Positions 199 to 55,005 of a stretch of DNA of 55,005 bases are shown here, piece by piece. The stretch comes from a virus. The stretch is from the IMG/VR virus record IMGVR_UViG_3300031539_000039, positions 1 to 55,005 of that record; one strand, 5' to 3'. A program made the translations under genes and the position numbers. Each line of letters begins with the position of its first letter. Positions within the stretch are counted from its first letter, which is position 1. The notes under the pieces were generated by a model. That model made no database searches, had not been told where the DNA came from, and saw only the letters and a list, made by a program, of their open reading frames with translations.

Positions 199-665
199 TG
201 CTGCTCGATATACAGCTGAATCACTTTGGAAGAGGTTCGTGCACTATCAATCCCAGTCAACGACTCGTCAAAATAGGAATTGATCTGGCCTTGCAAGAGT
301 GGATATTAAAACACACAGGACTGATGTATCCGAATCCGAAAACCTATGCCTTTCCGTCCTATGCCTCATATATGGAATACAGCATAGCCCACGTTATTGC
401 GCACGAGGCTCTACATCAGGTTATCTACGATGAAGAAGGCTTTAGAGCCTGTAAAATGCTAGACAACGTTGACCAGTATGGAACCATGACGATGAGATAC
501 GGATATGAAGAGGACGTGTACTGGGGGATACAGTTTCGAAGAGTCCAATGGTGGAGGATATTCGACAATGATTTTGTGTTGAGGTATGACCTCCTGAAAA
601 AATTTGATGAGGCTCAAAGTAGATTGCAGGATAGGTTTGATAGGCAGGTGGAATTAGATAAATAA
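198..665 (+). CDS. Putative HExxH zinc metallopeptidase-like protein
   Basis: A 155-residue protein with H69-E70-x-x-H73 in the stretch AHVIAHEALHQV. That is the arrangement of zincin metallopeptidases, where the two histidines bind zinc and the glutamate activates water. I cannot place a third zinc ligand with certainty, and no signal peptide is visible. The ATG overlaps the stop of the DUF483-like gene, so it sits in the rightward accessory operon behind the radical SAM gene. A peptidase there could process a modified peptide or act on the cell surface. That role is inferred, and a non-catalytic protein is possible. Confidence 0.6.
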   Translation: MLLDIQLNHFGRGSCTINPSQRLVKIGIDLALQEWILKHTGLMYPNPKTYAFPSYASYMEYSIAHVIAHEALHQVIYDEEGFRACKMLDNVDQYGTMTMRYGYEEDVYWGIQFRRVQWWRIFDNDFVLRYDLLKKFDEAQSRLQDRFDRQVELDK

Positions 666-2113: not shown

Positions 2114-2865
2114 ACGGTAAGTTATTCGATGTAGAAAACATGACCACGCAACAGCGTGATAGAGGACTAGAGATAGTTCTGGAAAACTGTGGAGAACAAG
2201 CAGAGGTTGTCCTCTGTAGCCTCACAGGATCAAGAGCCTTCGGTTGGGGCGGGGACAGATACGATATGGACATCCATGGAGTGATCGCATCCCAAGGGCC
2301 TGGTTGGGACAATATGCATACCGGTAAGTTCGGTTACGACATCTCGATGTACAACTTCGACGTGTTCCTGATGGGTATGAGAGACCGGTGGATACTGTAC
2401 GAGAATTTATCAAATCCAATCTTCATTCACAAAGACTTCGACTTCAAAGGATTCCTATCCTTCTGCTGCCCGTTCCATGTCAAGCACCAGATGGGCACCA
2501 TAGAGATGGAGTTGCATACTTTGAGAAACAAGGAGACAATGCGAAAAGCCTTACACTGCTACCGACAGTTGGCCAATTCGCTGTGGTTCTTACAAACCGG
2601 TGAGGTACAGATTGATATAGGGAAAATTTATGAGAAATTCGAGATGGGTGAGTTTCCAAAGCTCTGTGAGTTTTACAAGGCGAGACAGTTAGGAGCTAAG
2701 TTAGACTGGCAGAAGATTTGGGCTGAACTGGGTGGATTGAAAGTTCAGATGGATCAACTGTTGGAAGAAAAACAAGACATATTTGATAAGGAGAGATTTG
2801 AGGAGTGGAAACAAGAAATGGTGGTGAAATTTATTGACTACAATATCAGGCGTCCTAACTTTTAG
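2101..2865 (+). CDS. Nucleotidyltransferase (RlaP-like, polymerase-beta fold)
   Basis: A 254-residue protein with TGSRAFGWGGDRYDMDIHG near residue 42. That is the GS-x(n)-D-x-D signature of polymerase-beta-type nucleotidyltransferases in the form used by the DUF4269/RlaP-like group. The two aspartates would bind the catalytic magnesium. The C-terminal half is helical and may bind the substrate. It could adenylylate or uridylylate a sugar, a protein or an RNA end; the sequence does not decide. It overlaps both neighbours in the rightward operon, between two glycosyltransferases. Confidence 0.65.
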   Translation: MVELNGKLFDVENMTTQQRDRGLEIVLENCGEQAEVVLCSLTGSRAFGWGGDRYDMDIHGVIASQGPGWDNMHTGKFGYDISMYNFDVFLMGMRDRWILYENLSNPIFIHKDFDFKGFLSFCCPFHVKHQMGTIEMELHTLRNKETMRKALHCYRQLANSLWFLQTGEVQIDIGKIYEKFEMGEFPKLCEFYKARQLGAKLDWQKIWAELGGLKVQMDQLLEEKQDIFDKERFEEWKQEMVVKFIDYNIRRPNF

Positions 2866-3664
2866 GAACTGCATCAAGACAGGGTATCCATTCCTGGAGG
2901 CCATCCTATCTGTCCTACCGATAGTAGATGAGTATCGGATAAATGACGGCGGATCAATCGATGGCACTAAAGAGTGGCTACAAAAACTGAAGGATGTATT
3001 CCCAGATAAGATCATACTTTACGACATGCAAGACTACCCATCAGATAGATGGGAGTGTGTTAGTGAGCAATATAATAAAATGATCGAGGACTCAACTGGA
3101 GACTGGATGTTTCAAGGTGACGCGGATGAGGTAATCCATGAGCAAGACATCGGCGCCCTCAAGGCTGTAATCGAAAACATCTCTGATGATGTGGATGTAC
3201 TAAGGTTCCCAAGACGAGAAATTGGAGGATGGATGAGACTATCAGGTGCCGATAAACCATACCATCCATGTCGAGCGGTTAGAAACATTCCCGGGCTATA
3301 CCAAAAATGGGAGAGCCACGGCGGCGATGAGTTCTTAGACGAAGCCGGATGGATAAAAGAGCCGCGAAGACAGAAAAGCGATGTAATGATTTGGCATTTA
3401 TATACGGTTTTCCCGGGGAACAATATGGAGAAATGGAAAAATGACGCAACATACGTTGCAACCGGTGATGATCATAGAGTTAGGATATTCGAAGAACGTA
3501 AGAACAAGAGATGGTCTTCAGGTATAGATAGAGTCATCGTTAATCCAATTCCTAACTTACCGGCACTTGTGAAGGATATGGTGGGATGGGATAAATACAA
3601 GGTTAGAGGGACGCTTTTAGATATAGATTGGTTGAATTTTGTCACTGGTCTACGTTACGGTTAG
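2834..3664 (+). CDS. GT2-family glycosyltransferase
   Basis: A 276-residue GT-A enzyme. It has a typical N-terminal strand, then INDGGSIDGT (donor-binding region) and FQGDADEV carrying the D-A-D metal motif. The family transfers a sugar from a nucleotide-sugar to an acceptor in the cytoplasm. I take the TTG at 2834 as the start because GGTGGTGA lies about 7 bases before it and no other start is available. The gene overlaps the nucleotidyltransferase by 32 bases. It ends the rightward operon and runs up against the leftward His-rich repeat gene with a 4-base overlap of stops. Confidence 0.75.
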   Translation: MTTISGVLTFRNCIKTGYPFLEAILSVLPIVDEYRINDGGSIDGTKEWLQKLKDVFPDKIILYDMQDYPSDRWECVSEQYNKMIEDSTGDWMFQGDADEVIHEQDIGALKAVIENISDDVDVLRFPRREIGGWMRLSGADKPYHPCRAVRNIPGLYQKWESHGGDEFLDEAGWIKEPRRQKSDVMIWHLYTVFPGNNMEKWKNDATYVATGDDHRVRIFEERKNKRWSSGIDRVIVNPIPNLPALVKDMVGWDKYKVRGTLLDIDWLNFVTGLRYG

Positions 3665-4821
3665 ACATCTGCATGTATAACAAAGGGTGGGCTGTTAGTA
3701 TGTGGGGTATCGCTGAAAGGTGTGTTGCTGTGAACGTTCATGAACGGGAAGTTAACATGACTCGGATTATCAGCAAACGGAATGTTTGAGTGGTCGCCAT
3801 GGGGCGGAAAGTTTACGTGCGATGGGTTATCGGCAAACGGAACGTTTGAGTGATCACCGTGAACTGGAAAGTTTATGTGGTTATCAGAGTAGAAGGGAGT
3901 ATTTGAGTGATCACTATGAGCTGGGAAATTTACATGGCTGTCAGGATATGCTGGGGTATTTGAATGGCTATCCCTGAACGAGGTATTACTGAAGGGGCTA
4001 TTTGAGTGGTCATTGTGAGCAGGAAAGTTTACGTGGCTATCACTATAGGTAGGAACGTTTGAGTGGTCACTATAGGCTGGAAAATTGACGTGACCAACAT
4101 CTGAGTGGTTAGAGTGTGCCTGATCAGTAAATTCATCACTATGTGACGTATCAACATACGAGTGGTCAGAATGGCCTTGATCAGAAAACGCATTACTGTG
4201 TGCTGTGTTACTAAACGGTCTATCTGAATGATCGTTACTATGTGCCGTATCAGTAAACGGATGGTTACTATGAACTTGGTCAGAATAGTCATTACTATGT
4301 ACTGTATCAGAGAAAGGATGGTTAGAGTGTACTTGGTCGATATATTCGTCACTATGGGGCGTATCTCCAAACGGTTGATTAGAGTGTACTTGGTCAGTAT
4401 ACTCATTACTGTGAGGATTATCTCCAAACGGTTGATTAGAGTGTACCTGAACTGGAACATTGCTATGAGGCAAATCTCCGAATGGACAGTCCTGATGCCC
4501 AGTTTCCCGTAGCAACCTGAAAGCCCTTGGCACTCCAGCCGTCGGCTGATAATCCCACGCACTGGCCGATGGATCCGCTCGGGGGACCGTATAAATGGAG
4601 TAAGTTGTTATATTCTTGTGAACACGGGGAACTCCACCAACTCCACCAACTTCCTCAGCTGGGAGGACTAAGCATATTTCACTATTCGCTGAGTTATAAT
4701 GATCGCAGTCACTATGGCAGACATCTTGGTGAGGTGGGCCAGCAACGTCAGCAAATGGAATGTTGGAATGCACTACATCACCGTGATGGTGAATAAACAG
4801 ACCGCGATACATAGTCGGCAT
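3661..4821 (-). CDS. His-Ser-Asn/Asp repeat protein (candidate substrate or metal-binding virion protein)
   Basis: A 386-residue protein, most of it a degenerate repeat. It has roughly two dozen short units built on HSN or HSD plus PF(A/S/G)D or VNFP (for example VHSNQPFGDTPHSDEY), and later units of the type HGDHSN..PFADNPSHVNFP. It is very rich in His, Ser, Asn and Asp and almost free of Lys; Cys occurs only at C36 and C47. No membrane segment or signal peptide is seen. It is the last gene of the leftward tail operon, 12 bases after the tail-tip gene, with GAGGG before the ATG. It may be a tail or spike component that binds metal, or a target of the radical SAM enzyme at 52968, which carries PHGDH repeats itself. 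No family was recognised. Confidence 0.7.
   Translation of the reverse strand: MPTMYRGLFIHHHGDVVHSNIPFADVAGPPHQDVCHSDCDHYNSANSEICLVLPAEEVGGVGGVPRVHKNITTYSIYTVPRADPSASAWDYQPTAGVPRAFRLLRETGHQDCPFGDLPHSNVPVQVHSNQPFGDNPHSNEYTDQVHSNQPFGDTPHSDEYIDQVHSNHPFSDTVHSNDYSDQVHSNHPFTDTAHSNDHSDRPFSNTAHSNAFSDQGHSDHSYVDTSHSDEFTDQAHSNHSDVGHVNFPAYSDHSNVPTYSDSHVNFPAHNDHSNSPFSNTSFRDSHSNTPAYPDSHVNFPAHSDHSNTPFYSDNHINFPVHGDHSNVPFADNPSHVNFPPHGDHSNIPFADNPSHVNFPFMNVHSNTPFSDTPHTNSPPFVIHADV
3680..4720 (-). repeat. Degenerate tandem repeat coding for H-S-N/D units
   Basis: The DNA repeats with the protein. Words such as gagtgg/gagtgt (coding for HS), aaacgg/gaaagg and gttacgtg/gttaacatg recur every 30-66 bases. The units diverge more at 3' codon positions than in the His/Ser/Asp positions, so the repeat looks kept for its protein. 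Such an array can expand or contract by slippage. Confidence 0.75.
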
Positions 4822-4833
4822 TCAGTCTTCCCT

Positions 4834-7800
4834 CTAAAGGTCGTTCCTCAACCAGATGTCGCCACTCGCAAGAGCCGCAGGATCTGCACCAACAGATGGA
4901 ATCCGGAGATTATCAGCCACCTGCACCTTATCGGGGAGCACCCATCCAGTCATGTAGGTGTACTGGGCCCCTCCGCCGGGAACAATGTAGATGTCGTCTC
5001 CTGCACCTGATGTGAGAAGAAGATCCTCTGCTGAGGCTAACTGAAGATAAGGATTAGCCCCGCCTATGCCGTAAACCCATCCACGGAAGACCCCCGCAGC
5101 ATCATTGAAAAAGATGAAGGTTCCGTTGATTGTTATACCCAACGCATCAAGTATGACTGTACCGCCACCAGCGAGAATCTTTCCATCAGTGGCTTGGAAG
5201 AGTGCCTGTAATGCTCCAGCTGCACCCTTTCCTTTAATACCATTCCGAGTGATGATAACTCCAGGGTCCCCAATCCCATCCGTCCAAGAGACTCCATCAG
5301 AAGTTTTCATTATCTTACCTATCAGAGCGTCACCAGTGAGCAAGATGGTATCTATTACCCCAGCACCCAAGAAGTCAAGAGTTTTACTCCCTCCTCGGGT
5401 GAATACAGGGAATATAAATGGTTCTTGCCCAGCTGCAGTGGTCACCCTGGCAATTATTCCCACTGTATCTCCTACAGCATTGGCATATGTGTTAGTCAGT
5501 GTAACTCCAGCACCCGTAGTGAATATCGCCCAATAGGTGTTATCAAGAGCAAGTGTATGATCAGTTCCATTAGCAATGTTTTGAGTTGTTCCATCTGCAA
5601 ACCAAACTGCAGGAGCAGCCCCCGTCCATTTAACTGCGTCAGTAACCGATACAATCATCTGCTCATCGTCAGTATTGTCCGCACCCGCAAGGGTGGTAGT
5701 TAAGGTGACTGATGCTCCTCCGCCTCCAACAGAATCTACTATTTTACCAGTACAATTATGTAACCATGGCGGCTCAGAGTTTTGAATTAATATCACATCT
5801 CCAGCGACGAAGTCTGAAAATGGTATCCCAGCAGATGCAGTGATTACAGCCTTCCCGGCACCATTATCAACATCAATATCAAGAGTCACAGTACTAGTAG
5901 CCACTACTCTGATGGCTTCAACTAGTACTGCACTATCAAATGGCTGTATACCTTTCTTTAGCTGTGTCGCGGATAGGGTTCCCGAGATGGTTGTCGCGGC
6001 AAAGTTGATCAGCGTCCACACGCCGGTCCACTCGTACCAGAGATCGTTAGTAGTGTCGTGCCACGTATCCCCGATAACTTCTCCGTTTGCAGGCGGTCCA
6101 GGAAAGGCCCGGTGCATGGTGATAGGGCCACGTACCCAAATCCCAGCGGTTTCATCCCACCGGTACCAGACGCCCTCATTGCCGTAGTAAACTCCCGGTA
6201 CACCTACATCCGTCGTGAGGTGGTGCATGTCCTCGTTGACAGGGTCAGTTGGGAATGCGGCTCCCTCGGTGAACCCCATACGGTCGCCCGTCAAGATGTC
6301 CCCAAGGAAGAGATCCCAGTCATCCATAGAGCCCTTGAACCCACGGTTCTGGCGGCGGAGCTCAGCGAGCATAGCGGCGTTAGGGTCCGTCGACCTGATA
6401 ACCCGGCCCGCATCAGCGTCAGTCGACACAAGATCGTAGGTCGTCCAGAAGTCGAATCCCCTAACATCAGACTTCTTTCTGAGGATGTGCTGAAGCCGGA
6501 CGATGATGTACTTCGTTAGTGCGTCTACCCCATGCTGGGGTGCCCGTACATGTACATATTGAGCCGCGTACAGGGTATCCACCTGGCCCTTAGCGACGGC
6601 CTTGAACTTAACTAGGGGATACCGCTTCATGAGCAGCACCCGGTCGCCATATGCCTTCAGCTGGGGCATCGACCGGAGCTCGTTACGGTACTCAGGGTAC
6701 ATCCTGTCATCGTACAGGCCTCTGCTCCCTGCATCCGCTGTAGTGTATTTCGCCTCTAGGCTGGGGATCGTCCAGCCGTCGATCCACACTATCCCGTTCT
6801 CGGCGTGAGGGTACTTGAAACCCATCTGAACTACATTATTCCAGTTAAACGGTGCCACCGATCCGGCGGCGAAGGTCCAGTAGCCATTCATCTCGGCACC
6901 CGTGGCCCTGATCGGGTTACCGTCGTGGTCCCCAAGGGGGTACGTGATCACGCTCCACTTACCGGCGCCAATATTCCAGTCTGGAATGTCTTCGGTGATG
7001 CCTTTACTCCCAGCCCCAGACTTCCTCCGGATGAACACAATCTCCTTCCCACCATCATCTACCAGGAATGGTCTGAAGTTGAACCGATCTTCAGCATCTC
7101 TCTCGCCTTTGATAAGCACCTTCGCCTGACAGAAAGGGGACAGGTCAATGGAGCCGGTGTAGCCGTATAGTGTACCCGCGAAGTTCAGGTAGGCGCTTGA
7201 GGCGCCAGTACATGTCAACTCGATGCTGCCGAGGCCGTAGATGAAGTGGGTGGTAGTTTCGCTGGCGATAGCCCCGCCACCGCCGGCGGTCCAACCTGTG
7301 GGGTTCTCCTCGGTGTAGTGGTCCTTGACGTTTCCGGCGGAGATCTCAATGATGTTCCTAATATCCCCGCCCTCCTGCTCAAACTCGTCGAAGGAAAGCA
7401 GGTTGTTTGTGGGGTCCCCAACTAGGCTGATGAGGTCAACGGTGGAATCAATGGTGCCTGATGCGAAGATATGAAGCTCGTTAGCGTTGTCAATGTAGGA
7501 GTCGTATGCCATCAGGTCACATATCTCACGAACAGCGTCACAGAGGAAGGTTCTCTTTCCCTCATACTTGATGCTCGGGGTTCCACCTGGGTCTGCATAT
7601 GTCCAGGGGTCGTTTGCTCCTCCAAACATGGAGAATATGTCGAGGAGTATCGCCCCCCCTGGCTGGGTTTTGTACTTCTTCGTGAAGTAAAGGTCAGCCC
7701 CATACCGACCGTAATCCGTGCCAGTTATTAGGAGTTCATTGGTATAGACTCCCTTCTCAGTCAGGTATGGCACCACGTCCTTAACCTTGCCCGCGAATAT

Positions 7801-7986
7801 TGGAGCCCCATTGATGGCGAGGGCGATCGCGTCGTTTGAGGCGAATGTGCCGCCCCAGATGTCGGCCGGGTTCGCCAGCCTTATCTTGCAAGTGCCAATG
7901 TTGTTAACCTTGTTCTTCTGAACATCAGAATCCACCACATAGTTACTGACAACGTTCCCGCCTATCGTGCACGTCGTGTCAGTCAT
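4834..7986 (-). CDS. Tail tip / baseplate hub-like protein with C-terminal fibre region
   Basis: A 1050-residue protein. The first ~400 residues resemble baseplate-hub/gpD-like proteins: a beta-rich start (residues 1-90) with NNIGTCKIRL and a repeated LLITGTDYGRYG-type segment, then LCDAVREICDLMAYDSYID. The middle contains a short Trp-rich domain near residues 600-650 (GDTWHDTTNDLWYEW) common in virion fibres. The last 350 residues are Gly/Ala/Thr-rich beta repeats ending with a PSVGADPAALASGDIW segment typical of fibre ends. It would sit at the tail end and contact the host. It overlaps the 7983 gene by 4 bases (ATGA). Confidence 0.65.
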   Translation of the reverse strand: MTDTTCTIGGNVVSNYVVDSDVQKNKVNNIGTCKIRLANPADIWGGTFASNDAIALAINGAPIFAGKVKDVVPYLTEKGVYTNELLITGTDYGRYGADLYFTKKYKTQPGGAILLDIFSMFGGANDPWTYADPGGTPSIKYEGKRTFLCDAVREICDLMAYDSYIDNANELHIFASGTIDSTVDLISLVGDPTNNLLSFDEFEQEGGDIRNIIEISAGNVKDHYTEENPTGWTAGGGGAIASETTTHFIYGLGSIELTCTGASSAYLNFAGTLYGYTGSIDLSPFCQAKVLIKGERDAEDRFNFRPFLVDDGGKEIVFIRRKSGAGSKGITEDIPDWNIGAGKWSVITYPLGDHDGNPIRATGAEMNGYWTFAAGSVAPFNWNNVVQMGFKYPHAENGIVWIDGWTIPSLEAKYTTADAGSRGLYDDRMYPEYRNELRSMPQLKAYGDRVLLMKRYPLVKFKAVAKGQVDTLYAAQYVHVRAPQHGVDALTKYIIVRLQHILRKKSDVRGFDFWTTYDLVSTDADAGRVIRSTDPNAAMLAELRRQNRGFKGSMDDWDLFLGDILTGDRMGFTEGAAFPTDPVNEDMHHLTTDVGVPGVYYGNEGVWYRWDETAGIWVRGPITMHRAFPGPPANGEVIGDTWHDTTNDLWYEWTGVWTLINFAATTISGTLSATQLKKGIQPFDSAVLVEAIRVVATSTVTLDIDVDNGAGKAVITASAGIPFSDFVAGDVILIQNSEPPWLHNCTGKIVDSVGGGGASVTLTTTLAGADNTDDEQMIVSVTDAVKWTGAAPAVWFADGTTQNIANGTDHTLALDNTYWAIFTTGAGVTLTNTYANAVGDTVGIIARVTTAAGQEPFIFPVFTRGGSKTLDFLGAGVIDTILLTGDALIGKIMKTSDGVSWTDGIGDPGVIITRNGIKGKGAAGALQALFQATDGKILAGGGTVILDALGITINGTFIFFNDAAGVFRGWVYGIGGANPYLQLASAEDLLLTSGAGDDIYIVPGGGAQYTYMTGWVLPDKVQVADNLRIPSVGADPAALASGDIWLRNDL

Positions 7987-11566: not shown

Positions 11567-14092
11567 CTAGGCAACTATTCTCACCACCACCTCATCTGAA
11601 GACACCTCGGCTTCTACCTCGGTGTCCATTAGGTCTGCTTCCACCTCGTCGCTGGTCAGATATACATGGATGAAGCGCCGGATCACGAAGCGCACGTCCA
11701 AGCCGAAGCTATTCTGAATATCACCTCTAAAGAATGCGGCGTCGAAGTCGGGTGTCTTCTCGACCGTTGCTTGGAATGCGGCGTCGAAGTCAGCAGGCTT
11801 CTCAATATCCTGAAGCTGGAAGGCGGCGTCAGTGTCGGAGGTTTCCTCGATGCCTTCGAGCCGGAAGGCAGCATCAATATCAGCGGTTCTTTCGACGCCC
11901 AGGGCCTTGAAGATAGCGTCAAAGTCCGGCGCCTTCTGAATGCCCTGCAACTGGAACGCTGTATCGAAGTCAGCTGTTTTCTCTATGTCCTGGAGTTGAA
12001 AGGCTGCGTCGACGTCGCGTGTTTCTTCGATGCCCAGCTTCTGGAAGGCCGCATTGATTTGTCTCCCAATCTCGGTGCGGAGAACAATGAGAGTGTCAAC
12101 ATCAAAGGTTCTCTCGACGCCCAACCTCTTGAATAGGGTGTCTACCCCTCGCTGGAGTTCTAGGCGTAATACTATAAGGGTATCAACATCAGCTGTCTTT
12201 TCAATTCCTAATTTCTTAAAGACAGCATCGATGTCAAAGGTTGTTTCAATACCTAGCTTCCTAAACGCGGCATCCACAGTTCGCTGTAACTCTGTTCGTA
12301 GGACTATGAGAGTGTCAATGTCAAAGGTCTCCGTAATACCTTGAAGTTGAATAGCAGCATCAACATCGGCTGTAACTGGAATACCTAACCTCTTGAACAC
12401 CGCATCAACATCAAAAGTCTCCTCAATACCTTCTAACTTGAAGGCAACATCAAAATCAGGAGTCTTCTCGATGCCTTGAAGCTGAATGGCTGTATCATAG
12501 CCACGTGCCTTCTCGATGCCTTGCAACTGGAAGGCGACATCGAAGTCAGGGGTTTTCGGGATAGCCTGCCTCTGGATAGCGACATCATAACCGCGTGCCT
12601 TCTCTATGCCTAACGCCTTGAAGACAACATCTACATCCCATGTTTTTGTGTAAGTTACTGGAACAACGGCTAGGTATATGAAAGCTACTTCATAGTAGAC
12701 GGGGAGGCTGCTCGCCGTGTTGTAGGTATGGTCGCTGTGGTCTCCAGGAGCAGGGGTCGTATGGTTAAGGTGGGCACCAGTGTTGCTGAGATCACCATGG
12801 TTGTGAGCGGGCCCATAATAAACAGTGCCAGCAGTACTCTGGGGCAGCCCGTTTGCTGGAACTCCTGTTAAAGTGCTATGTCTGTGGGACCACGTAGAGT
12901 TAGAATCAGCCGCATCATGTATGTGTGCGCCCTGAGCGTCAATTGTATGAGTATGATCACCAGCACCTTGAGGCGTGTGAGTGTGTGTGAGGTCGCCGCC
13001 TGTGCCGCCTGGGTTAGTTAAGGCGGTGTTGACGCCACGGATGAATTTACTTAGAAGGTTCGGGCCGCTCCCGTTCCCGTCGCACAGCTCCCATTTATCT
13101 GGGATGTTCGCGATAGTCCCTGTCCAAATACAGATAATTCCAACCTTTGGATCTGCACCGCCAGCTCCTGCAGTAATAGGCGCTAACTCATAATATGGCG
13201 GTCTCCCATCACTGGCGTTTATGGTGTGTGAGTGGCTCCCTGTACTTGCAGCGGTGTGGCTGTGCGACCCACCAGCAGTTGTTGTATGTGAGTGTGAACC
13301 AGCGTTAGTGTTACTTGCGATTTGTGTTGGCCCGTAATTCATAACAAGACTAGAAGTAAAGTGATTATGGCTTCCAGCAGAGTTCGATGTATGGGTGTGA
13401 GTTGCCGCTGCTAAAGTATGGGTATGTGCTCCAGCAGCGTTCTGAGTATGGGCATGTGAATCAGCTCCGCCTGTGCCACCTGGCTCAGTGGCTGCTGGAA
13501 CTCCTCGGAGAAACTTTGCCACTAAACTGGTATCAAGACTCCAACCAGCGGGGATATTACCGAGAACATCACTCCAAAGGGTAATTATTCCCTGGGCAAA
13601 AGTAATAGGAGTTCCATCAGAGTAAATGAAAGCTACCTGATAGTATGCGGGTCTAGTGTCAGCGTTCTGGAGTGTATGAGCATGAACTCCCTGGGAATCA
13701 ATTGTATGGGTATGTGCTCCACTGCTAGACCATGTGTGGTTGTGGTTTCCACCTGAATTGGTAATCTTATTTATCTCATTTTTATACCCAGCCGTTACTA
13801 CACCATGAGACGAATAACTATGATTTCCTGTGGAGTTCGGTGTTGTATGTGTATGTGCGCCTCCGCTACCTGAAGTTCCACCATGATTATGCGCCCCGCC
13901 AGTTCCATTCTCAGTGTGAAGGTGAGTATCAGATCCGCCCTCACCCCCAGGATCGGTTGAAATGGGAACACTCACCAAGAACTTGGCGAGAAGGTTCGGT
14001 CTACCCCCGTTGCCATCACAGAGATCCCACCCAGCGGGAATGTTAGCTATGGTTCCTCTCCATACCGCTATAACTCCCACTGGAATCGGCAT
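11567..14092 (-). CDS. Tail fibre with three collar/HxH domains and a C-terminal 14-15-residue repeat array
   Basis: An 841-residue protein. Three copies of a phage tail-collar-type domain begin near residues 5, 170 and 320 (W..T.ANIPAGWDLCDG..G.PNLL.KF). Each is followed by a His-rich stretch with many HTH, HNH and HSH motifs, like the metal-binding needle of T4 gp12. Residues ~484-795 hold about 21 repeats of 14-15 residues built on (F/V)DxAFQLQGIEKT. The last 40 residues are acidic. It should be a trimeric receptor-binding fibre. The repeats may form a long solenoid or coiled shaft. Confidence 0.7.
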   Translation of the reverse strand: MPIPVGVIAVWRGTIANIPAGWDLCDGNGGRPNLLAKFLVSVPISTDPGGEGGSDTHLHTENGTGGAHNHGGTSGSGGAHTHTTPNSTGNHSYSSHGVVTAGYKNEINKITNSGGNHNHTWSSSGAHTHTIDSQGVHAHTLQNADTRPAYYQVAFIYSDGTPITFAQGIITLWSDVLGNIPAGWSLDTSLVAKFLRGVPAATEPGGTGGADSHAHTQNAAGAHTHTLAAATHTHTSNSAGSHNHFTSSLVMNYGPTQIASNTNAGSHSHTTTAGGSHSHTAASTGSHSHTINASDGRPPYYELAPITAGAGGADPKVGIICIWTGTIANIPDKWELCDGNGSGPNLLSKFIRGVNTALTNPGGTGGDLTHTHTPQGAGDHTHTIDAQGAHIHDAADSNSTWSHRHSTLTGVPANGLPQSTAGTVYYGPAHNHGDLSNTGAHLNHTTPAPGDHSDHTYNTASSLPVYYEVAFIYLAVVPVTYTKTWDVDVVFKALGIEKARGYDVAIQRQAIPKTPDFDVAFQLQGIEKARGYDTAIQLQGIEKTPDFDVAFKLEGIEETFDVDAVFKRLGIPVTADVDAAIQLQGITETFDIDTLIVLRTELQRTVDAAFRKLGIETTFDIDAVFKKLGIEKTADVDTLIVLRLELQRGVDTLFKRLGVERTFDVDTLIVLRTEIGRQINAAFQKLGIEETRDVDAAFQLQDIEKTADFDTAFQLQGIQKAPDFDAIFKALGVERTADIDAAFRLEGIEETSDTDAAFQLQDIEKPADFDAAFQATVEKTPDFDAAFFRGDIQNSFGLDVRFVIRRFIHVYLTSDEVEADLMDTEVEAEVSSDEVVVRIVA
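11700..12645 (-). repeat. About 21 tandem repeats of ~45 bp inside the tail-fibre gene
   Basis: Each unit codes for a 14-15-residue motif of the type D-(F/V/I)-D-x-A-F-Q-L-Q-G-I-E-K-T. Several blocks vary (TLIVLRTELQR) and alternate with the main type. Copy number can change by recombination, which would alter fibre length. Confidence 0.75.
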
Positions 14093-16351: not shown

Positions 16352-17236
16352 TTAGATGTGCATATACTCAGTATGATCCATATGCATTGATTCTAATCTC
16401 GGTTTACCCGTGAGCTCAGTTGCGGGAGCTGTGACGAACATAACCTTAAACTGTATTTCATGCTTACCGGCAAAGTCCGCCGCCGGGATAGTGAGGTTCC
16501 CTGTTGTATGGAATACGCTTCCAAGATCCGATGTATAGGTATCATCTATAGTCCTAGGGCTGTTTGCATGGCTTCCAGACAGTACATCTCCGTCAGTGAC
16601 TGCCAGGTACTCCACTTGGATTCTGATTTTCTTACCGTTATCATCTAATCCCGTGTCATTCGTCCAGTGGAATAATAATACTATATCAGTGCCAGGCACA
16701 TAATGTGGCGAAACTTCCCATTTATAGTGAACAATATCGGTATCAACGTCGAACTCCAGCATTAGGGTATTATCTACGGTTACAACATCCGGTGGGTTAG
16801 TATTGGGTCTTCCAAACTTCTCCGCTGGAATATGATCCCCGTGTGGTCTGGTATCATCTATTTGCTTAATCCACATGGGAACGAGAAGCATGTAGGTTGA
16901 GCCATGAGCGACACCGACAGCTTGAGAATATCCAGATGTAGTGGGCGGAGTCTGCGTGAGGCCTCCGGGGGTCGATGATGCATAGATGGGGCCGTCAACC
17001 CACGCCCAGTCTAGGTTGCTTACTAGACCGTATAGCAGGATTCTGCCTTTGTAGTTGATCGGTAGATCGCTGAGCACCATCCCATACCCAGGCATTGTCA
17101 GCTCTGCGTCCCTGTCCGCCTTGTACCATTTACCTCCCTTGATGTAGACCAGGTTGTAGTTGTCCAGGGCTTCCCCTGCCACGCCCTCAACTATGAGTCC
17201 GTCCCCTTCCCGATGCGGTTTAATCACATAAGGCAT
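16352..17236 (-). CDS. Virion protein, long paralogue of the 18072 gene
   Basis: A 294-residue protein. The first ~130 residues match the 18072 protein closely (both start MPYVIKP.REGDGL and share NYKGRILLYGLVSNL and YASS.PGGLTQ). The remaining 160 residues form a beta-sandwich-like domain, probably receptor or glycan binding (FHTTGNLTIPAADFAGKHEI). At the junction stands TRPHGDHIPAEKFGR, whose PHGDH core also occurs in the His-repeat protein and in the radical SAM protein. Probably a tail or capsid decoration protein. Confidence 0.55.
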   Translation of the reverse strand: MPYVIKPHREGDGLIVEGVAGEALDNYNLVYIKGGKWYKADRDAELTMPGYGMVLSDLPINYKGRILLYGLVSNLDWAWVDGPIYASSTPGGLTQTPPTTSGYSQAVGVAHGSTYMLLVPMWIKQIDDTRPHGDHIPAEKFGRPNTNPPDVVTVDNTLMLEFDVDTDIVHYKWEVSPHYVPGTDIVLLFHWTNDTGLDDNGKKIRIQVEYLAVTDGDVLSGSHANSPRTIDDTYTSDLGSVFHTTGNLTIPAADFAGKHEIQFKVMFVTAPATELTGKPRLESMHMDHTEYMHI

Positions 17237-18071: not shown

Positions 18072-18566
18072 CTATTCGGGTGCATCATACTCAACTCTGA
18101 GTTTGGGCTCCCCTTCCACAAGTTCTACGTATAGGTTTGTGACTTTAAACATTCCGTCTGGAGCTCGTGTCATCACTGGGTTCACATCCAGCTCCTTGAT
18201 CCACATAGGAGCAAATAACATGTAGTCCGTGCCGTATGCCACCCCAATGGATTGATGCCACCCGGCCCAGTCAGGAGGTTCCTGTGTAAGCCCTCCGGGC
18301 ACCGACGAAGCGTATATGGCCCCATCCTCCCATGACCATTCGAGGTTGCTGACCAGTCCGTACAGCAGGATTCTGCCCTTGTAATTGGGGGGAAGATCGC
18401 TCAGCGCCATGCCGTAAGCTGGCAAGGTAGGAGACGTATTCCTATCTGCTTTGAACCATTTACCTGCGGTGAGGTGGACTAGATCATACTTGGCGAGAGT
18501 GTGTCCTGCGATACCCTCAGTTATGAGCCCGTCCCCTTCTCTTTTGGGCTTGATCACATATGGCAC
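18072..18566 (-). CDS. Virion protein, short paralogue of the 16352 gene
   Basis: A 164-residue protein sharing its first ~125 residues with the 16352 protein but lacking the C-terminal sandwich domain. Its own end (GMFKVTNLYVELVEGEPKLRVEYD) resembles that of the 17605 protein. It follows the head-tail connector gene by 14 bases. The pair suggests a local duplication in which the longer copy gained a binding domain. Confidence 0.55.
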   Translation of the reverse strand: MPYVIKPKREGDGLITEGIAGHTLAKYDLVHLTAGKWFKADRNTSPTLPAYGMALSDLPPNYKGRILLYGLVSNLEWSWEDGAIYASSVPGGLTQEPPDWAGWHQSIGVAYGTDYMLFAPMWIKELDVNPVMTRAPDGMFKVTNLYVELVEGEPKLRVEYDAPE

Positions 18567-24116: not shown

Positions 24117-24946
24117 ATCATCACACCCCAGTCGCACGCATTCCGCCTGATTGAATACTCGCTTTTCTTGATCAGTCGGTTTATCTCGTATTGACGTTGC
24201 ACGATCTCCATCCCAATCGACTGGTGTAGCCTCATCGGAGGATGCCACTGATGGTAGAACCGCATGTTAGGATCATAGTTTTCCTCTATTTCGTAGCTCT
24301 CTATTTCACGGTCTATCTCAGCTCGTCTACGCAAGTCGCCGTCCTCATGGCCATACATCTTCATCCTCTCGTCGAAACCCCTCACCTTCATCCACCAGCT
24401 TTGTGGTGCGCTCATGAAGCCTCCGACGCTTCTTTTGATATACCTCGGATTGCCGGCTCTTAGCTTCTCATAGTCTCTAGGCAGATCCATGTTTTCAACC
24501 TCAACAGTCTCGTCTAAAAGGTAGGGTGCCATCATGATCAGCCGAGGCCTCTCTATGTGAATGTTGAGGGCGCATTTAAGAACCGAAGGCATCAACACGC
24601 AGTCTGCGTCCAGTGTCGCAACGTATTCGCCTCTCGCCCTCCTCAGCCCAATGTTCCGCGAGAGTGACATGCTCCACGCGTCCATGGTTGGGAAGCGGAG
24701 CACGGTGCAGTCGAACGGCTCAAGCGTCGCCATCAACCGCCTGTGGTTCTCAGGGGTGGAGCCGTAGTCGACTACGATTACCTCAAGGCTTCCCACGGTT
24801 TGAAGCTGAAGGCTCCTCAGGCAGTTCCTCACCCTCGCGCCATAAAGGTTCCCCACGGGTACGATGATGGAGTAGATGGGCGCCTCTATCTCCTGAACAC
24901 GAACTATCTCAACATACGGGGGCCCGGACTGCCTGCGGCTCTTCAT
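24113..24946 (-). CDS. GT2-family glycosyltransferase
   Basis: A 277-residue GT-A enzyme: YSIIVPVGNLYGARVRNCL (donor region), VIVVDYGSTPENH, and YVATLDADCVLMPSVL with the D-A-D metal motif. FDERMKMYGHEDGDLRRRAE is the typical ED catalytic region. Overlaps the genes before and after it by 4 bases. Sugar donor and acceptor are unknown. Confidence 0.85.
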   Translation of the reverse strand: MKSRRQSGPPYVEIVRVQEIEAPIYSIIVPVGNLYGARVRNCLRSLQLQTVGSLEVIVVDYGSTPENHRRLMATLEPFDCTVLRFPTMDAWSMSLSRNIGLRRARGEYVATLDADCVLMPSVLKCALNIHIERPRLIMMAPYLLDETVEVENMDLPRDYEKLRAGNPRYIKRSVGGFMSAPQSWWMKVRGFDERMKMYGHEDGDLRRRAEIDREIESYEIEENYDPNMRFYHQWHPPMRLHQSIGMEIVQRQYEINRLIKKSEYSIRRNACDWGVMI

Positions 24947-26418
24947 CGGGGGAGCACCCTGCGAACAGGTTTATCCCATAGCTTTGGCTGAGCTGGTTCG
25001 AATCCCCACTTCTTTTTGAAACGATCCTTAGAAGCTTCATTTCGTTTAATGTCTCGACGCAGCAGATTATACTCAGCGCTGTCATAACAGGGTATAATTC
25101 CTTTAGAGGTGACTAGATATTTATGATGGGCCACGGCGTCTCCGCAGACAGCCATCCGAAGCCCCGCCTTCCTTATCTCTTGGCTCCAGTCCCAGTCATT
25201 CCATCCAAAGTCGTATTCTGTATCGTAAGGAATAAGCGGGTCTAGTTTGAAGGCTGTGAAGCCAGAGGATACAAACTGCACCTCCGCGGTTTGCTTCACC
25301 AAGGGAAGAACGTGGTGCTGTGTTTCACCCTCTTCGTGGGTTATGTAGCCGCCTAACATTCGATTCATGCCTTTCTGGATGACGCCGCCTGCTATGGCGT
25401 GGTATTGTGGGTTTTCCGCTAACGCTCTGATGAGGGCTTCAATGCTTCCTGGGTGTGGTAAGATGTCATCATCGAGGGTTAACATGTATCTGTACCCTTC
25501 CTTTCCGAAAGCCTCCATCGCCTCTGTTCTGATCTCTGAGAGTTTTCGTGGCTCTGGGTTGTCAATGACGTCTACAGCCCATCTACCTCGCCAACACTTC
25601 AGAGCCTCCATCTGCTTGGGACTCCTGTCGCCTTGGTTGACTAGGCGAACCTTCAGGGGCATCCTGGTCCTGAAGATTGCTCTCATAACTTGGTCGATAT
25701 AGTAGGGTCGTTCCAGCGTCGCAACTAGGACCCCTACCTCTGGGTTATACGGGGTCACTCTATGGAGATTGTCCTTGTAATCCATCCGTTTCTTCGCCCA
25801 TAAATCCATGTTTCTCTGCTGGTTCGGGTGGACTCTCAGGTGGTGTTGATGACTGCCCTTCAGACCAGGCTCGTATCGAAGCCTTATGCCGCTATGGTAA
25901 CACCTCGCACCAAAGTCGTGATCCTCGGCACCCCAGCCAGAGTCGTATTCCGTGTCGAATAAACCCACGAGCTTTGCTCTGCTCCTTGAGAACAGCATAC
26001 ATCCATCCAAGGCCTTCCAGGCGCCCATGTAAGAATCATCCAGCCACCTGGAGCCCTCACCTGGTGTTGCTTGGTTCCCTGTAAACAGGACACTTGGATC
26101 AAAAACTCTGCGTGCATTCTCTAGGAAGTGTGGGTTCGGGATACAATCGGGGGCAAGGATGGTCACAGCGTCGTTCTTAGCGGATCTTATACCAAGGTTG
26201 CGTAGAGTGTTCAGCCTGTGAATGCGTTGGTCAAGTTTCGGTGGCCTCACAATAGTTAACGCCTGGCAGCCGCATATGCCTATGCCTGAGGGAGAGTGGT
26301 CGTCGACGACGATCACCTCATCGTCGGGGTTCAGCTGAAGTTTGAGTTCATTGAACGTCTTTTTGAATGCCCTCTTCTTCTCATAGAACGGGATCACTAT
26401 GCTTATGCCTATTGCCAT
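24943..26418 (-). CDS. Bifunctional glycosyltransferase with two GT2 domains
   Basis: A 491-residue protein with two GT-A domains. Domain 1 (residues 1-220) has ISIVIPFYEK, VIVVDDHSPSG and SGWGAEDHDFGARC (ED acid region). Domain 2 (225-470) has VGVLVATLERPYYI, MLTLDDDILPHPGS and FGWNDWDWSQE, and is similar to the 23361 protein. Two-domain enzymes of this sort add two successive sugars or polymerise a repeat. Cytoplasmic. The start codon overlaps the upstream gene by 10 bases. Confidence 0.85.
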   Translation of the reverse strand: MAIGISIVIPFYEKKRAFKKTFNELKLQLNPDDEVIVVDDHSPSGIGICGCQALTIVRPPKLDQRIHRLNTLRNLGIRSAKNDAVTILAPDCIPNPHFLENARRVFDPSVLFTGNQATPGEGSRWLDDSYMGAWKALDGCMLFSRSRAKLVGLFDTEYDSGWGAEDHDFGARCYHSGIRLRYEPGLKGSHQHHLRVHPNQQRNMDLWAKKRMDYKDNLHRVTPYNPEVGVLVATLERPYYIDQVMRAIFRTRMPLKVRLVNQGDRSPKQMEALKCWRGRWAVDVIDNPEPRKLSEIRTEAMEAFGKEGYRYMLTLDDDILPHPGSIEALIRALAENPQYHAIAGGVIQKGMNRMLGGYITHEEGETQHHVLPLVKQTAEVQFVSSGFTAFKLDPLIPYDTEYDFGWNDWDWSQEIRKAGLRMAVCGDAVAHHKYLVTSKGIIPCYDSAEYNLLRRDIKRNEASKDRFKKKWGFEPAQPKLWDKPVRRVLPR

Positions 26419-51545: not shown

Positions 51546-52547
51546 TTAGGATGGGGTAAGACTCATCCATGCGGCGTCCCCGCTGTCCCCGCCTTCCAGC
51601 ATGGCCTCTGTGAGGATCAAGTCGTCGAACTCTATATATCCGGCGCTGCCATAATTCACGATGCCGTGGGCGCAGTCATCCGTTATGACCCCTTTCGTGT
51701 ATTCGCTTGTTCTACCTACCTTGTGCAACGTGTCGCCGATGTTGGCCTCATGGATGTCCACATCGACGGGGATCCACCCCGTCTCCACTATGTTTCTTGC
51801 CTTGCAGAAGAAGCTCGCCAGATCAGAGCCAGCGAAGCCCAAACCAACGAACCCTGAGAAGTCCTCGACGCCATGAATCGCAAGTTTATAATCCACTGTG
51901 GGCTCCGCCACGGCGAAGTCTATCTTATTCTCACCCTCTACGAAGGTTGTGAATCTGCTCTGTCTACCTGCCAGTCGCGAGGTCGTGTTCAAGCCTGCCA
52001 CCACACTACGTGCGAGGGGGCAGTCACTAATGCCACCGTAAAGTTGCTTGTGCCACAGATACTCGGCGACCTGATCAGCGGGGAGATGTCCATCATCATG
52101 ACGACCAGGCTGAACTATTCTCTTCTCAAGGCTACCCGGGTTCGCTGGGTTCGATGCGAACACATGAGAATTACTTCCAAGAGCGACAGTATCCTTCTCA
52201 AAGTACCATCCAAGGGTGCCGGCGGTGATCGCCCAGTTCCCTATGCTTATCCCCGCCTCTAGGGGGCGCACCCTCTCCGTGTAGGCCTTCGGGGACGCCA
52301 TCAAGGGCGGTATAACCATCTCCCCGATGACAACCACGTCAGTCGCGACACCCTCAATTTCAGACGGTATCACATCGACAAGGGACAAGGCTGAAAGGGG
52401 CAGCTTCTCCACGACGTAGACTCTGAACACCTCCTCCTTAACGACGCGACCATCCCTGAAGCGGCTTCTCAGCTTCTTAGAGTAACCCTGAACGTTCCTC
52501 CTCCACTTTACCTTTTTCCACAGGTTTTCAAGTTTCAAAGCCTTCAT
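51546..52547 (-). CDS. Trypsin-fold serine protease
   Basis: 333 residues from the ATG at 52547; the open frame beyond it crosses the promoter and is not real. The catalytic triad is visible: H128 in LGSNSHVFA, D210 in KIDFAVAEP and S322 in EGGDSGDAA. No signal peptide or membrane anchor is seen, so it may act inside the cell or be packaged. It stands alone on the minus strand, sharing a divergent promoter with the rightward operon. It could process virion or modified precursor proteins. Confidence 0.75.
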   Translation of the reverse strand: MKALKLENLWKKVKWRRNVQGYSKKLRSRFRDGRVVKEEVFRVYVVEKLPLSALSLVDVIPSEIEGVATDVVVIGEMVIPPLMASPKAYTERVRPLEAGISIGNWAITAGTLGWYFEKDTVALGSNSHVFASNPANPGSLEKRIVQPGRHDDGHLPADQVAEYLWHKQLYGGISDCPLARSVVAGLNTTSRLAGRQSRFTTFVEGENKIDFAVAEPTVDYKLAIHGVEDFSGFVGLGFAGSDLASFFCKARNIVETGWIPVDVDIHEANIGDTLHKVGRTSEYTKGVITDDCAHGIVNYGSAGYIEFDDLILTEAMLEGGDSGDAAWMSLTPS

Positions 52548-52578
52548 TCCTCCCGATTCATATGGAGGGGTGTTGGAC

Positions 52579-52590
52579 AATATATATAAA
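52579..52590. promoter_or_regulatory. Bidirectional TATA element
   Basis: AATATATATAAA is nearly symmetric and is the only TATA box in the gap between two divergent genes. Leftward it gives an RNA start near 52558, 11 bases before ATG 52547 with GGGAGG between. Rightward it gives a start near 52611, just ahead of ATG 52620. Confidence 0.6.
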
Positions 52591-52607
52591 ACAAGCCCAC
52601 CGCGTAG

Positions 52608-52949
52608 ATGACGGTGACGATGAATAACAAAAAGGTTATAGTGGTCGCTCTCATAGCGACGCTTCTCGGCGGAGTCATGGGCGGAGTCTTTGCGCAGCAT
52701 CAAAGGGCTGTGAAGATCAACGAACTTAAGGGAGAACTTGAAGAAACGGCTGATACATGTAGGCAGTACGGTGAGAGAATAGCAGAACTTGAGAATGCCA
52801 TAGACGTCATAGTGATGGAGAGGACGATGTACATCGAGTTGTCGTTCGCGGAGATCCAGAGGCTTAGAGTGGAACTCGAAGCCACGAAGCAGCTCCTCGC
52901 CGATTTAAACCAGACATCCTACCCTTGTTTTTATAACGTTACGAAATAG
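52608..52949 (+). CDS. Membrane-anchored coiled-coil protein
   Basis: 113 residues from ATG 52608; ATG 52620 is more likely from promoter spacing. One N-terminal membrane segment (VIVVALIATLLGGVMGGVFA) is followed by a long coiled coil (KINELKGELEETADTCRQY, IQRLRVELEATKQLLADL). The form is that of phage spanins, Rz-like or sensor stalks, with the coil outside the membrane. First gene of the rightward operon, 18 bases before the radical SAM gene. Confidence 0.6.
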   Translation: MTVTMNNKKVIVVALIATLLGGVMGGVFAQHQRAVKINELKGELEETADTCRQYGERIAELENAIDVIVMERTMYIELSFAEIQRLRVELEATKQLLADLNQTSYPCFYNVTK

Positions 52950-52967: not shown

Positions 52968-54254
52968 ATGACAATCCTCATCATACCAACAGAGCACTGT
53001 CAATTCCGGTGTACCTATTGCTTCGAACCAGACTCGTTGAGGCACAAAGAAGAATATCTTGAACCAGATATTACCGCTGTTCAGCGATCTTTAGACAAAC
53101 TATGGGGAGATTCCTATCAGGGCAGTGATATTGGCATACATGGCGGTGAATGTACGACGTTACGCCCACGGGAGTTAGAGCCCTACCTGAAAATGATTTT
53201 CGACAAAATCGGGCACACAGGTATTACTACGAATGGCTATAACATTGATGATGGTTACATTCAATTATTTAAGAAATACAAAACATATGTTGGGATAAGT
53301 TGTGACGGCCCTGAAGCATTGAATACTTTACGTGGTCCGAATCCACAAGATGCAAATGGAACCAAAGGATATAATCGTAAGTTGAAAAAGATTCTTCGAA
53401 AGTTACGGAAGGCTAGAATCGATGTCAGCATGATGTGTATCCTACATACTGAGAATGCTGGGAATGAAGATAAACTAGATCAACTGAAAGAATGGGTGGT
53501 ATGGCTCTCCGATATGGGCATCACCGGCGGACGATTTAACCCACTATATGCTATGCCCTGGCAGTCGAAGTATCAACTAGATAACGATCAACTGTTAACT
53601 GCTTGGAAGGAATTAACCAACTTAACTTTTGACTACAGCCTTCGATGGAACCCAATCAGAGAGATGGAAGACAGCCTACTAGGATTCTCGGTCTCACCAT
53701 GCACATTCGGTCAATGTGACAATTTCCAGACCAGTACTATCAGCATTCTGCCTGACGGTACAATTAGCAATTGTGATCGTACATTTGAATATGGATTACA
53801 TTTGCGAAGTGAAACTGATTTATGTAGCGGTAGGTACCAGGCGCTGATAACAGATCAATGTAAAGACTGTAAGTATTGGAACTTGTGCAATGGTGGATGC
53901 CCAAGTGAAGGTGTCGATGGAGACTGGCGGAACAAGAGCAGATTCTGCGAAGCATACTACGGCTTATATGAGTACGTTGGACAAAAAATAAAGGGATTGT
54001 TTCCAAACGTTATGCTAGTTACCGAGAGCACTGAGCGAGAGCCATTCAAGTTGATGTCCTACCGTTACTCATCGAAGCCGTCGGTTTATGGAGCTGCGCC
54101 ATTAGTTGAAAATTGTCCACCGACCCCATCAACTCAACAGGTAGGGTATCGTCCCCATGGAGACCACTATGATGAGACGCAACGGATACTACAACCTGAG
54201 CAGCGCATTAATCGCCCGCACGGAGATCACTATGACGAGGCGTTACGAAGATGA
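52968..54254 (+). CDS. Radical SAM/SPASM peptide maturase with C-terminal PHGDH repeats
   Basis: 428 residues. C11-C15-C18 in EHCQFRCTYCFEP bind the radical SAM cluster, and GIHGGECT is the barrel region. The SPASM part has C-D-R...G at about 265, then CKDCKYWNLCNGGCPSEG and a last Cys, holding auxiliary Fe-S clusters. These enzymes modify peptides (for example by thioether, C-C or epimerisation chemistry). The last 50 residues carry PHGDHYDE twice, matching PHGDHSN in the repeat protein at 3661. GGTGAT lies before the ATG. ATGA overlap links it to the DUF483-like gene. Confidence 0.8.
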   Translation: MTILIIPTEHCQFRCTYCFEPDSLRHKEEYLEPDITAVQRSLDKLWGDSYQGSDIGIHGGECTTLRPRELEPYLKMIFDKIGHTGITTNGYNIDDGYIQLFKKYKTYVGISCDGPEALNTLRGPNPQDANGTKGYNRKLKKILRKLRKARIDVSMMCILHTENAGNEDKLDQLKEWVVWLSDMGITGGRFNPLYAMPWQSKYQLDNDQLLTAWKELTNLTFDYSLRWNPIREMEDSLLGFSVSPCTFGQCDNFQTSTISILPDGTISNCDRTFEYGLHLRSETDLCSGRYQALITDQCKDCKYWNLCNGGCPSEGVDGDWRNKSRFCEAYYGLYEYVGQKIKGLFPNVMLVTESTEREPFKLMSYRYSSKPSVYGAAPLVENCPPTPSTQQVGYRPHGDHYDETQRILQPEQRINRPHGDHYDEALRR

Positions 54255-55005
54255 GTAAACCCGACCTGTTCCCATTTACAGTGTTATCATGGAACAGTGC
54301 TAAGATAAAGAGGAAATGGGAGCCTATACAAAGAGAAATTCAAAATGCCGTAGCGTTTGCTGAATATGAAGGAGTAAAAAGAGGCCACCGACGCTGTGAC
54401 GTGTACCAACTTGATCCACACAGCTTCGATCACCAGATTGAGAAGGTTTTCATGGATGGATTATCCTACCTACCGATACTGCGATCACAACTATACCCTG
54501 GTTTTGGGCATCGGCACTATCTCGTAGAGGAATTGAAACAAGATACGTTTGTTTACGGGGTTGTTGGAAAGACATTGGAGGATGCTAAACTATTCAAAAA
54601 AGCCAGTGTTGGTGATGTAGATCACAACCAGATAGGAGAACTGCTAGGCTATCCAAAATGCTGTCGTGACTGGTTTTTAGAGGTTTGGTTGAAAGAAGGA
54701 AGCTGTGACCCGATGTATGAAACAGCATTGAATACGTCGAACCATGAAGTTAATGACGATGGATCTGTCACCGTCGGTGGTAATCCAAAATACAACAGGT
54801 TGATAAGGTACTTCGGGCTTCAGGCGATTCCATACTTCACCTGCAGTTATGAGTGTAAAGAATCTGAGAAGTTCATTGACTGGTTTTATGGTTTGATGTA
54901 CGAGAAGGCTCCAGATGCCTGCGAGATGTTACTGGAGGCGTTGAATATGCCGATGAAATGGTCACTGAACAATCTGATCATATACATAGAGCACCCACTA
55001 TTCCG
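54251..55005 (+). CDS. DUF483-like protein, N-terminal part (continues at 138-198)
   Basis: In the joined frame about 272 residues. The DUF483 hallmark IGELLGYPKCC lies near residue 140, with a further C-x3-C-like region (FTCSYEC). DUF483 proteins are found mainly in archaea and have no settled function; the G-Y-P-x-C-C motif suggests metal or substrate binding. ATGA overlap with the radical SAM gene and TAATG overlap with the HExxH gene show co-translation of the three. It may assist peptide modification; this is inferred from the context. Confidence 0.75.
   Translation, partial: MSKPDLFPFTVLSWNSAKIKRKWEPIQREIQNAVAFAEYEGVKRGHRRCDVYQLDPHSFDHQIEKVFMDGLSYLPILRSQLYPGFGHRHYLVEELKQDTFVYGVVGKTLEDAKLFKKASVGDVDHNQIGELLGYPKCCRDWFLEVWLKEGSCDPMYETALNTSNHEVNDDGSVTVGGNPKYNRLIRYFGLQAIPYFTCSYECKESEKFIDWFYGLMYEKAPDACEMLLEALNMPMKWSLNNLIIYIEHPLF
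54880..55005. repeat. Terminal direct repeat, right copy (circular junction)
   Basis: Exact second copy of 12-137. The match stops at the upstream side, where position 54879 is A and position 11 is T. The repeat lies inside the DUF483-like gene, so it is not a non-coding terminal repeat. Assembly overlap of a circular map is the simplest reading; a true direct terminal repeat of packaged DNA is less likely. Confidence 0.9.

Follow-up and report, generated by a model that had tools for sequence, protein, structure and literature searches.

The window, that is, the whole stretch of viral DNA analysed here (55,005 nucleotides of the IMG/VR record IMGVR_UViG_3300031539_000039), was found to contain an operon on the + strand that starts with a radical SAM/SPASM enzyme gene and a DUF483-like gene, followed by five more + strand genes. 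A gene encoding a His-rich repeat protein faced this operon from the - strand, opposite to that of the enzyme gene. An exact repeat of 126 bp was present at the ends of the window (bases 12–137 are identical to 54880–55005), which makes the record a closed circle of 54,868 bp or a circularly permuted sequence of this length. Since the window is circular, the DUF483-like gene crosses its ends, and about 4.3 kb separate the enzyme gene from the repeat gene. The HK97/encapsulin-like capsid match together with the Phage_portal_3 portal identified a tailed virus; the archaeal host assumed in a preliminary description of this DNA was not supported. The features of the locus were as follows:

52968–54254 (+), radical SAM/SPASM enzyme, 428 aa, intact
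54153–54176 (+), first PHGDHYDE (two H-x-D motifs) in the enzyme tail
54216–54239 (+), second PHGDHYDE in the enzyme tail
54251–55005 (+), DUF483-like protein, 5' part; its start overlaps the enzyme stop and it continues over the circular junction
1–198 (+), DUF483-like protein, 3' part; 271 aa in all (12–137 duplicates 54880–55005)
198–665 (+), HEALH protein of the enzyme operon
694–1362 (+), alkaline-phosphatase/sulfatase-superfamily protein, with Thr (TAPSM) where sulfatases have the Cys/Ser of CxPxR
1349–2113 (+), family 2 glycosyltransferase of the enzyme operon
2101–2865 (+), nucleotidyltransferase-like protein of the enzyme operon (GSRAFGWGGDRYDMDIHG; the family assignment is weak)
2834–3664 (+), family 2 glycosyltransferase; homologues adjoin the same module at loci L009/L020, L021, L022, and L025
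3661–4821 (-), H-x-[N/D] repeat protein, 386 aa, presumed substrate
3776–4092 (-), repeats of the HVNFPxHxDHSNxPF type
4124–4450 (-), 57-bp (19-aa) repeats of the HSNxPFxDTxHSNxxxDQV type
4834–7986 (-), probable tail protein, 1050 aa, directly upstream of the repeat gene; named 'tail' by context

The complete radical SAM core and the SPASM cysteines noticed earlier in the enzyme were borne out. Pfam Radical_SAM (PF04055) matched with 57.5 bits against a cut-off of 29.5 (E=2.5e-15), SPASM TIGR04085 matched with 30.9 bits against a cut-off of 27, and all of the cysteines were present. The radical SAM cluster motif CX3CX2C was found at residues 11/15/18 and the eight SPASM cysteines at residues 245, 250, 269, 298, 301, 307, 311, and 327. 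All of these were invariant among 78 non-redundant family members, and CX3CX2C was found in 50 of the 50 enzymes aligned. The enzyme fell far under every equivalog cut-off of NCBIfam; the best model was AmcB (72 bits against a cut-off of 425), and none of the cyclophane-maturase models (AmcB, YhhB, GrrM, XyeB, FxsB) was reached at its cut-off, all of the scores being far below. In the AlphaFold model, the core was confident (most residues >90) and the tail was disordered from about residue 360, unplaced, with a pLDDT of about 38. The solved structures nearest to the model were those of the peptide and protein modifiers anSME, ChlB, SuiB, and CteB, at 16–20% identity. The best single match was anSMEcpe (TM about 0.63), and the epimerase EpeE and the thioether enzyme CteB were among the fold matches. 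In a midpoint-rooted tree, the viral enzymes formed one clade with two haloarchaeal plasmid-borne enzymes (71 rows, SH-aLRT 96). The enzyme of the window fell inside this clade, its exact place being unsure because of its long branch.

The two PHGDHYDE copies that had been pointed out in the C-terminal tail were confirmed, and all four His residues of the tail obeyed the H-x-[N/D] rule. Most viral enzymes were found to bear the motif on their own tails. At least one motif was present in the tails of 66 of the 78 non-redundant enzymes (12 were without it), so the tail motif is no peculiarity of this virus. Among the same enzymes, 336 of 412 His residues in the tails were part of a motif, versus 71 of 694 in the core. 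The 673-aa enzyme of locus L012 contained 24 motifs in its tail. Some viruses contained two tandem enzyme paralogues with differing tails (L012 9968–13357; L045 8001–11451; L130 10403–13316).

The 386-aa protein contained 41 of its 46 His residues in H-x-[N/D] motifs (27 HxN, 14 HxD, and no HxS). Shuffling of the protein (20,000 shuffles) gave a mean of 8.9 motif His residues and a maximum of 20. The PHGDH core described earlier for this protein was present, HGDHSN being found twice and once as PHGDHSN; the common rule was H-x-N/D and not the string PHGDH. The RPHGDH motif that had also been assigned to the system was indeed found at position 16846, in the protein encoded at 16352–17236, but this link was rejected. 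It carries no weight because it is a single motif in an unrelated protein and is absent from the paralogue at 18072–18566, and HGDH elsewhere looks like chance. The adjacent genes of this tail region shared a 284-bp N-terminal part with 71% identity (16952–17235 and 18282–18565), by duplication or by swapped fibre heads.

In 111 non-redundant repeat proteins (4,045 His residues), the position +2 from His was occupied by Asp in 78% and by Asn in 9.5% of cases, against backgrounds of 11% and 4.5%, an enrichment that is partly circular because the proteins were chosen for the motif. At other offsets from His, nothing comparable was found. The tests of conservation and of Pro exclusion are free of this circularity. 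In three homologous tail proteins, His was kept in 93%, Asp/Asn in 96%, X2 in 26%, and the spacers in 52% of the comparisons. Most of the other homologue groups showed a similar pattern; the pair from the Thermus phages Cumys and phiMa was too similar to tell. Pro was found at X2 in 4 of 3,553 cases and at 0.1% after the Asp/Asn, against frequencies of 6.9% in the surrounding residues and 12.9% just before His. Selection thus acts on the two residues of the motif, and since these are kept while X2 is free and Pro is excluded, the essential elements are the two side chains and the backbone that joins them. The repeat regions of the scanned repeat proteins matched no curated NCBIfam or Pfam family.

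Both the DUF483 gene and the HExxH gene had been regarded as coupled to the enzyme, which was supported for the former only. Of 166 enzyme loci, 155 contained a DUF483-like gene, as a rule immediately downstream of the enzyme and in some genomes fused to it, whereas the HEALH protein (198–665) had a homologue at none of the related loci. The DUF483-like proteins matched the GYPxCC part of the DUF483 (PF04467) profile, mostly below the Pfam gathering score. In full they are about 270–320 aa long, with conserved GYPxCC and CSxxC motifs. The AlphaFold model reached a pLDDT of 95, and the fold search with it gave no PDB match at E<=0.001. At loci L014 (7675–8841) and L042 (9188–10480), the DUF483-like protein carried an additional methyltransferase-like domain, a hint of a second modification step. 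Our guess is that DUF483 probably binds the substrate or performs such a second step.

Among the other genes near the enzyme, the sulfatase-like protein (694–1362) is without a formylglycine site because of the Thr in TAPSM, and its gene gave no BLAST match at related loci. Just ahead of the enzyme, a 113-aa protein (52608–52949, +) was found with a membrane anchor and a coiled coil by eye and a spanin-like look; it had no homologue at related loci. The 385-aa protein at 51546–52703 (-) contained a GGDSGDAAW stretch reminiscent of trypsin-like serine proteases and gave no Pfam match. The 1050-aa protein upstream of the repeat gene had no PHROG match; a position directly downstream of a tail gene is usual for the repeat gene in relatives (compared at L009, L011, and L014). 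Further along the - strand, an 841-aa tail-fibre-like protein (11567–14092) matched tail-protein PHROGs at its N-terminus, and in its gene 30-nt units recurred at a spacing of 42–90 bp, often 45 bp (15 aa). A 491-aa protein with two family 2 glycosyltransferase stretches (24943–26418, -) was present amid structural genes.

The tblastn search of the enzyme against cultured phages gave three records only, all of them Thermus phages, at 27–30% identity. In Cumys and phiMa, a protein of about 343 aa was encoded immediately ahead of the enzyme, and all of its His residues (54 of 54 and 53 of 53, respectively) were in the motif; the enzyme tail ended in HGDYTDHGDAPHGDHWDG, and the DUF483 gene came next. 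In phiLo, the enzyme and a DUF483-like gene were accompanied by three repeat proteins of 474, 782, and 675 aa, with 75 of 78, 104 of 109, and 58 of 62 His residues in the motif, respectively. A plasmid prophage of Halomicrococcus gelatinilyticus encoded a 206-aa protein with N-terminal PGSxWIEG repeats, as in Cumys, and an H-x-D tail, followed by the enzyme, DUF483, and a DDCRWD protein, in this order; the last resembles the sulfatase-like protein of the window by eye only. The N-terminal repeats PGSxWIEGxxLxYxDxxG were common to L002, L006, and L012, ahead of the H-x-D part, and these are unrelated viruses (Thermus, haloarchaeal, and metagenomic). The repeats are possibly a unit for attachment to the virion.

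An IMG/VR scan with the single enzyme protein gave no match, and patterns based on alignments were needed. A narrow SPASM alignment was too variable for scanning. With enzyme-core patterns, the IMG/VR scan gave 187 relatives, of which 80 were kept, and one genome scan gave 57 loci; an earlier scan that yielded 7 loci had the enzyme tail motif among its patterns. Scans with the repeat protein and the DNA methylase of the window found no relatives, and the portal scan found two contigs. Other ORFs were used as internal controls because these scans yielded neither a close relative of the virus nor a control set from unrelated genes. The sample for co-occurrence contained 118 non-redundant loci, all those found via the repeat being left out. 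An H-x-D/N repeat protein was encoded by the unselected upstream neighbour of the enzyme in 62 of 109 loci; among the other ORFs of ≥150 aa, the count was 36 of 2155 (Fisher 5e-65). Within the locus DNA examined, a repeat protein was present in 63 of 69 viral and 29 of 49 genome or plasmid non-redundant loci; some cellular and a few viral loci contained no strong repeat protein there.

The association also held in the reverse direction. A DNA pattern for HxDxHxDxHxDxHxD, blind to the enzyme, returned 120 stretches, 19 of them with an ORF of at least 18 motifs. The enzyme was present at 16 of these 19 strong repeat genes versus none of the 101 other stretches. At L180 and L199, where the repeat was found without the enzyme, the sequence stops at the repeat or about 2 kb past it. 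L196 was rejected as a repeat gene without enzyme, being an out-of-frame reading of another repetitive ORF. Co-occurrence of the two genes in other viruses, which had been set beforehand as the test of the preliminary description, was thus found in diverse viruses and in both directions. It supports a virus-encoded enzyme acting on a repetitive protein. Membership of the His-Xaa-Ser systems was not supported.

In viruses, the repeat gene came last among the tail/baseplate genes, or the repeat formed a C-terminal fusion to a tail protein. Some bacteria carried the repeat on large proteins with a beta-rich look or on proteins with Tat-like, lipobox-bearing N-termini. Proteins of the latter type, with H-x-D tails and near the enzyme, were found in actinobacterial MAGs (L216 5203–5808, L270 12829–13302); they may be a cellular, exported version of the system. 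An exposed appendage would be the common denominator of the repeat proteins. It may also be glycosylated, since a family 2 glycosyltransferase resembling that of the window stands beside the module in several other viruses.

We propose that the radical SAM/SPASM enzyme, the DUF483-like partner, and the long repeat protein would form a three-part protein-modification module, in which the enzyme would act on each His-x-Asp/Asn motif, at about 41 sites in this virus. By analogy with the enzymes that form three-residue cyclophanes, a 5'-deoxyadenosyl radical would take a hydrogen from the beta-carbon of the Asp/Asn (i+2), and the carbon radical would bond to the imidazole ring of the His (i), with two hydrogens lost per motif. 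Such a reaction would turn part of an exposed appendage into a stiff stretch, rich in imidazole and stapled many times; the appendage would most often be encoded at the end of the tail-gene cluster or as a C-terminal fusion to a tail protein. The disordered enzyme tail is probably a pseudo-substrate, a docking arm, or a self-modified arm, which is again a guess. SPASM triceptide enzymes link the beta-carbon of residue i+2 to an aromatic residue at position i, and the links described are from His C2 to the C-beta of Ala or Arg, from Tyr to Asp, and from Trp to Asn/Asp (PMC11002830). From these i/i+2 links we infer that a His-to-Asp/Asn link is the simplest reading of H-x-[D/N]; this link was not among the described triceptide links that we found. 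The repeat protein is very likely the substrate of the enzyme and is likely to be located in the virion. The chemistry of the bond, from the His ring to the C-beta of Asp/Asn, has somewhat better than even chances by this analogy, and we hold the whole explanation, i to i+2 cross-linking on a virion appendage, to be rather probable. Against the cross-link, no short leader was recognisable in the repeat proteins, the enzyme and the repeat gene of the window are 4.3 kb apart on opposite strands, and repeats rich in His and Asp could simply bind metal. The same applies to the cyclophane models whose cut-offs were missed, to the length of the repeat proteins, far above that of triceptide precursors, to the loci with no strong repeat protein in the DNA examined, to the 12 of 78 enzymes without the tail motif, and to the tail left unplaced by AlphaFold.

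The enzyme might modify each H-x-D/N motif by another reaction, such as a link via another atom, beta-hydroxylation, epimerisation, or dehydrogenation of the Asp/Asn. This would account equally for motif recognition and co-occurrence; SPASM enzymes perform many reactions, EpeE and CteB are among the fold matches, and no curated cyclophane family was reached. We regard it as unlikely, because a change of one residue needs no His and Asp/Asn at a fixed spacing, whereas both are kept with X2 free, and Pro is excluded at X2 and X+1, as expected of a strained three-residue ring. Proteins rich in His and Asp often bind metal, and the repeats could form an unmodified metal-binding appendage, with the enzyme modifying another virion or host protein. 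Not all loci put the two genes together, which fits such an arrangement, but it would leave unexplained why the enzyme tails bear the motif, why the association holds in reverse, why the spacing is exactly +2, and why Pro is excluded, so that we consider it very improbable. Modification of DNA by the rSAM/DUF483 module, with the repeat protein as an unmodified neighbour, was suggested for Cumys and phiMa (Kolesnik et al., 2024). Related genes adjoin deazapurine DNA-modification genes in cyanobacteria (PMC11437467), and DUF483 is sometimes fused to a methyltransferase domain. The repeat is not discussed in that study, however; its association with the enzyme holds both ways, the enzyme bears the motif of the repeat, and the closest folds act on peptides or proteins, which makes a role in DNA modification still less credible. 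Maturation of the sulfatase-like protein (694–1362) by the enzyme as an anaerobic sulfatase maturase, to which anSMEcpe as nearest solved structure and the shared operon might point, was rejected on sequence and has next to no probability, since the protein has Thr (TAPSM) and no CxPxR/SxPxR, TIGR03942 gave 64 bits against a cut-off of 349, the gene has no BLAST match at related loci, and the position after the third SPASM Cys, which we take to be that of the catalytic Asp of anSME, is not conserved in this enzyme family, being Gly/Leu/Ser in most relatives.

Returning to the His-to-Asp/Asn cross-link, our results suggest that many tailed viruses, this one included, introduce chemical staples at dozens of sites in a tail protein of their own. 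More tentatively, and with the odds somewhat against the statement in full, a new enzyme family may install dozens of His-to-Asp/Asn three-residue cyclophanes in one tail protein of bacterial and archaeal tailed viruses, giving a rigidified, metal-capable fibre by RiPP-type chemistry; the enzyme would carry, and perhaps modify, its own substrate motif, and in bacteria, related enzymes would act on exported proteins of the cell. If this holds, viruses cross-link side chains of a structural protein by radical chemistry, which to our knowledge is not known in any virion, and the length and dense modification of the substrates are unusual for enzymes of this class. The function of DUF483 would become open to test, new peptide-stapling enzymes could be drawn from the family (187 relatives in one IMG/VR scan and 57 loci in a genome scan), and the published DNA-modification guess for the Thermus locus would be corrected. 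Since the Thermus phages phiMa, Cumys, and phiLo are in culture, mass spectrometry could test the claim directly.

Literature searches, which had most subscription papers outside their coverage, gave no account of an H-x-D/N system. The locus of Cumys and phiMa was described in 2024 as an 'rSAM module', for which a part in DNA modification was suggested; its third gene was given only as unknown, and the word 'histidine' does not occur in the paper (Kolesnik et al., PMC11437467). The repeat, the tail motif, and the idea of a substrate are absent from it. Like the window, that locus contains a homologous rSAM enzyme (29.5% identity), an adjoining DUF483-like gene, and an H-x-D repeat protein, and the enzyme tail carries the motif, ending in HGDHWD; the window differs in that its repeat gene, rich in HxN, is encoded 4.3 kb away on the opposite strand. 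The His-Xaa-Ser systems (HxsA/B/C/D), to which the preliminary description had compared the locus, also combine a repeated His-x-residue motif with a radical SAM/SPASM enzyme. However, the HxsB model (TIGR03978) gave 30.4 bits against a cut-off of 370, the motif is HxD/N and not HxS, and no HxsB/HxsC pair or HxsD was seen among the operon genes of the window. The triceptide enzymes (AmcB, YhhB, HaaB, YxdB, OscB/GrrM, XncB/XyeB) share with the window a SPASM radical SAM enzyme and a substrate motif of i and i+2. Unlike the short triceptide precursors, the repeat proteins range from <200 to >1,300 aa and contain from a dozen to 104 motifs, and the DUF483 partner and the motif on the enzyme's own tail further distinguish the module. 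Although the enzyme scores far below every family cut-off, the module probably works, by analogy, like a triceptide system.
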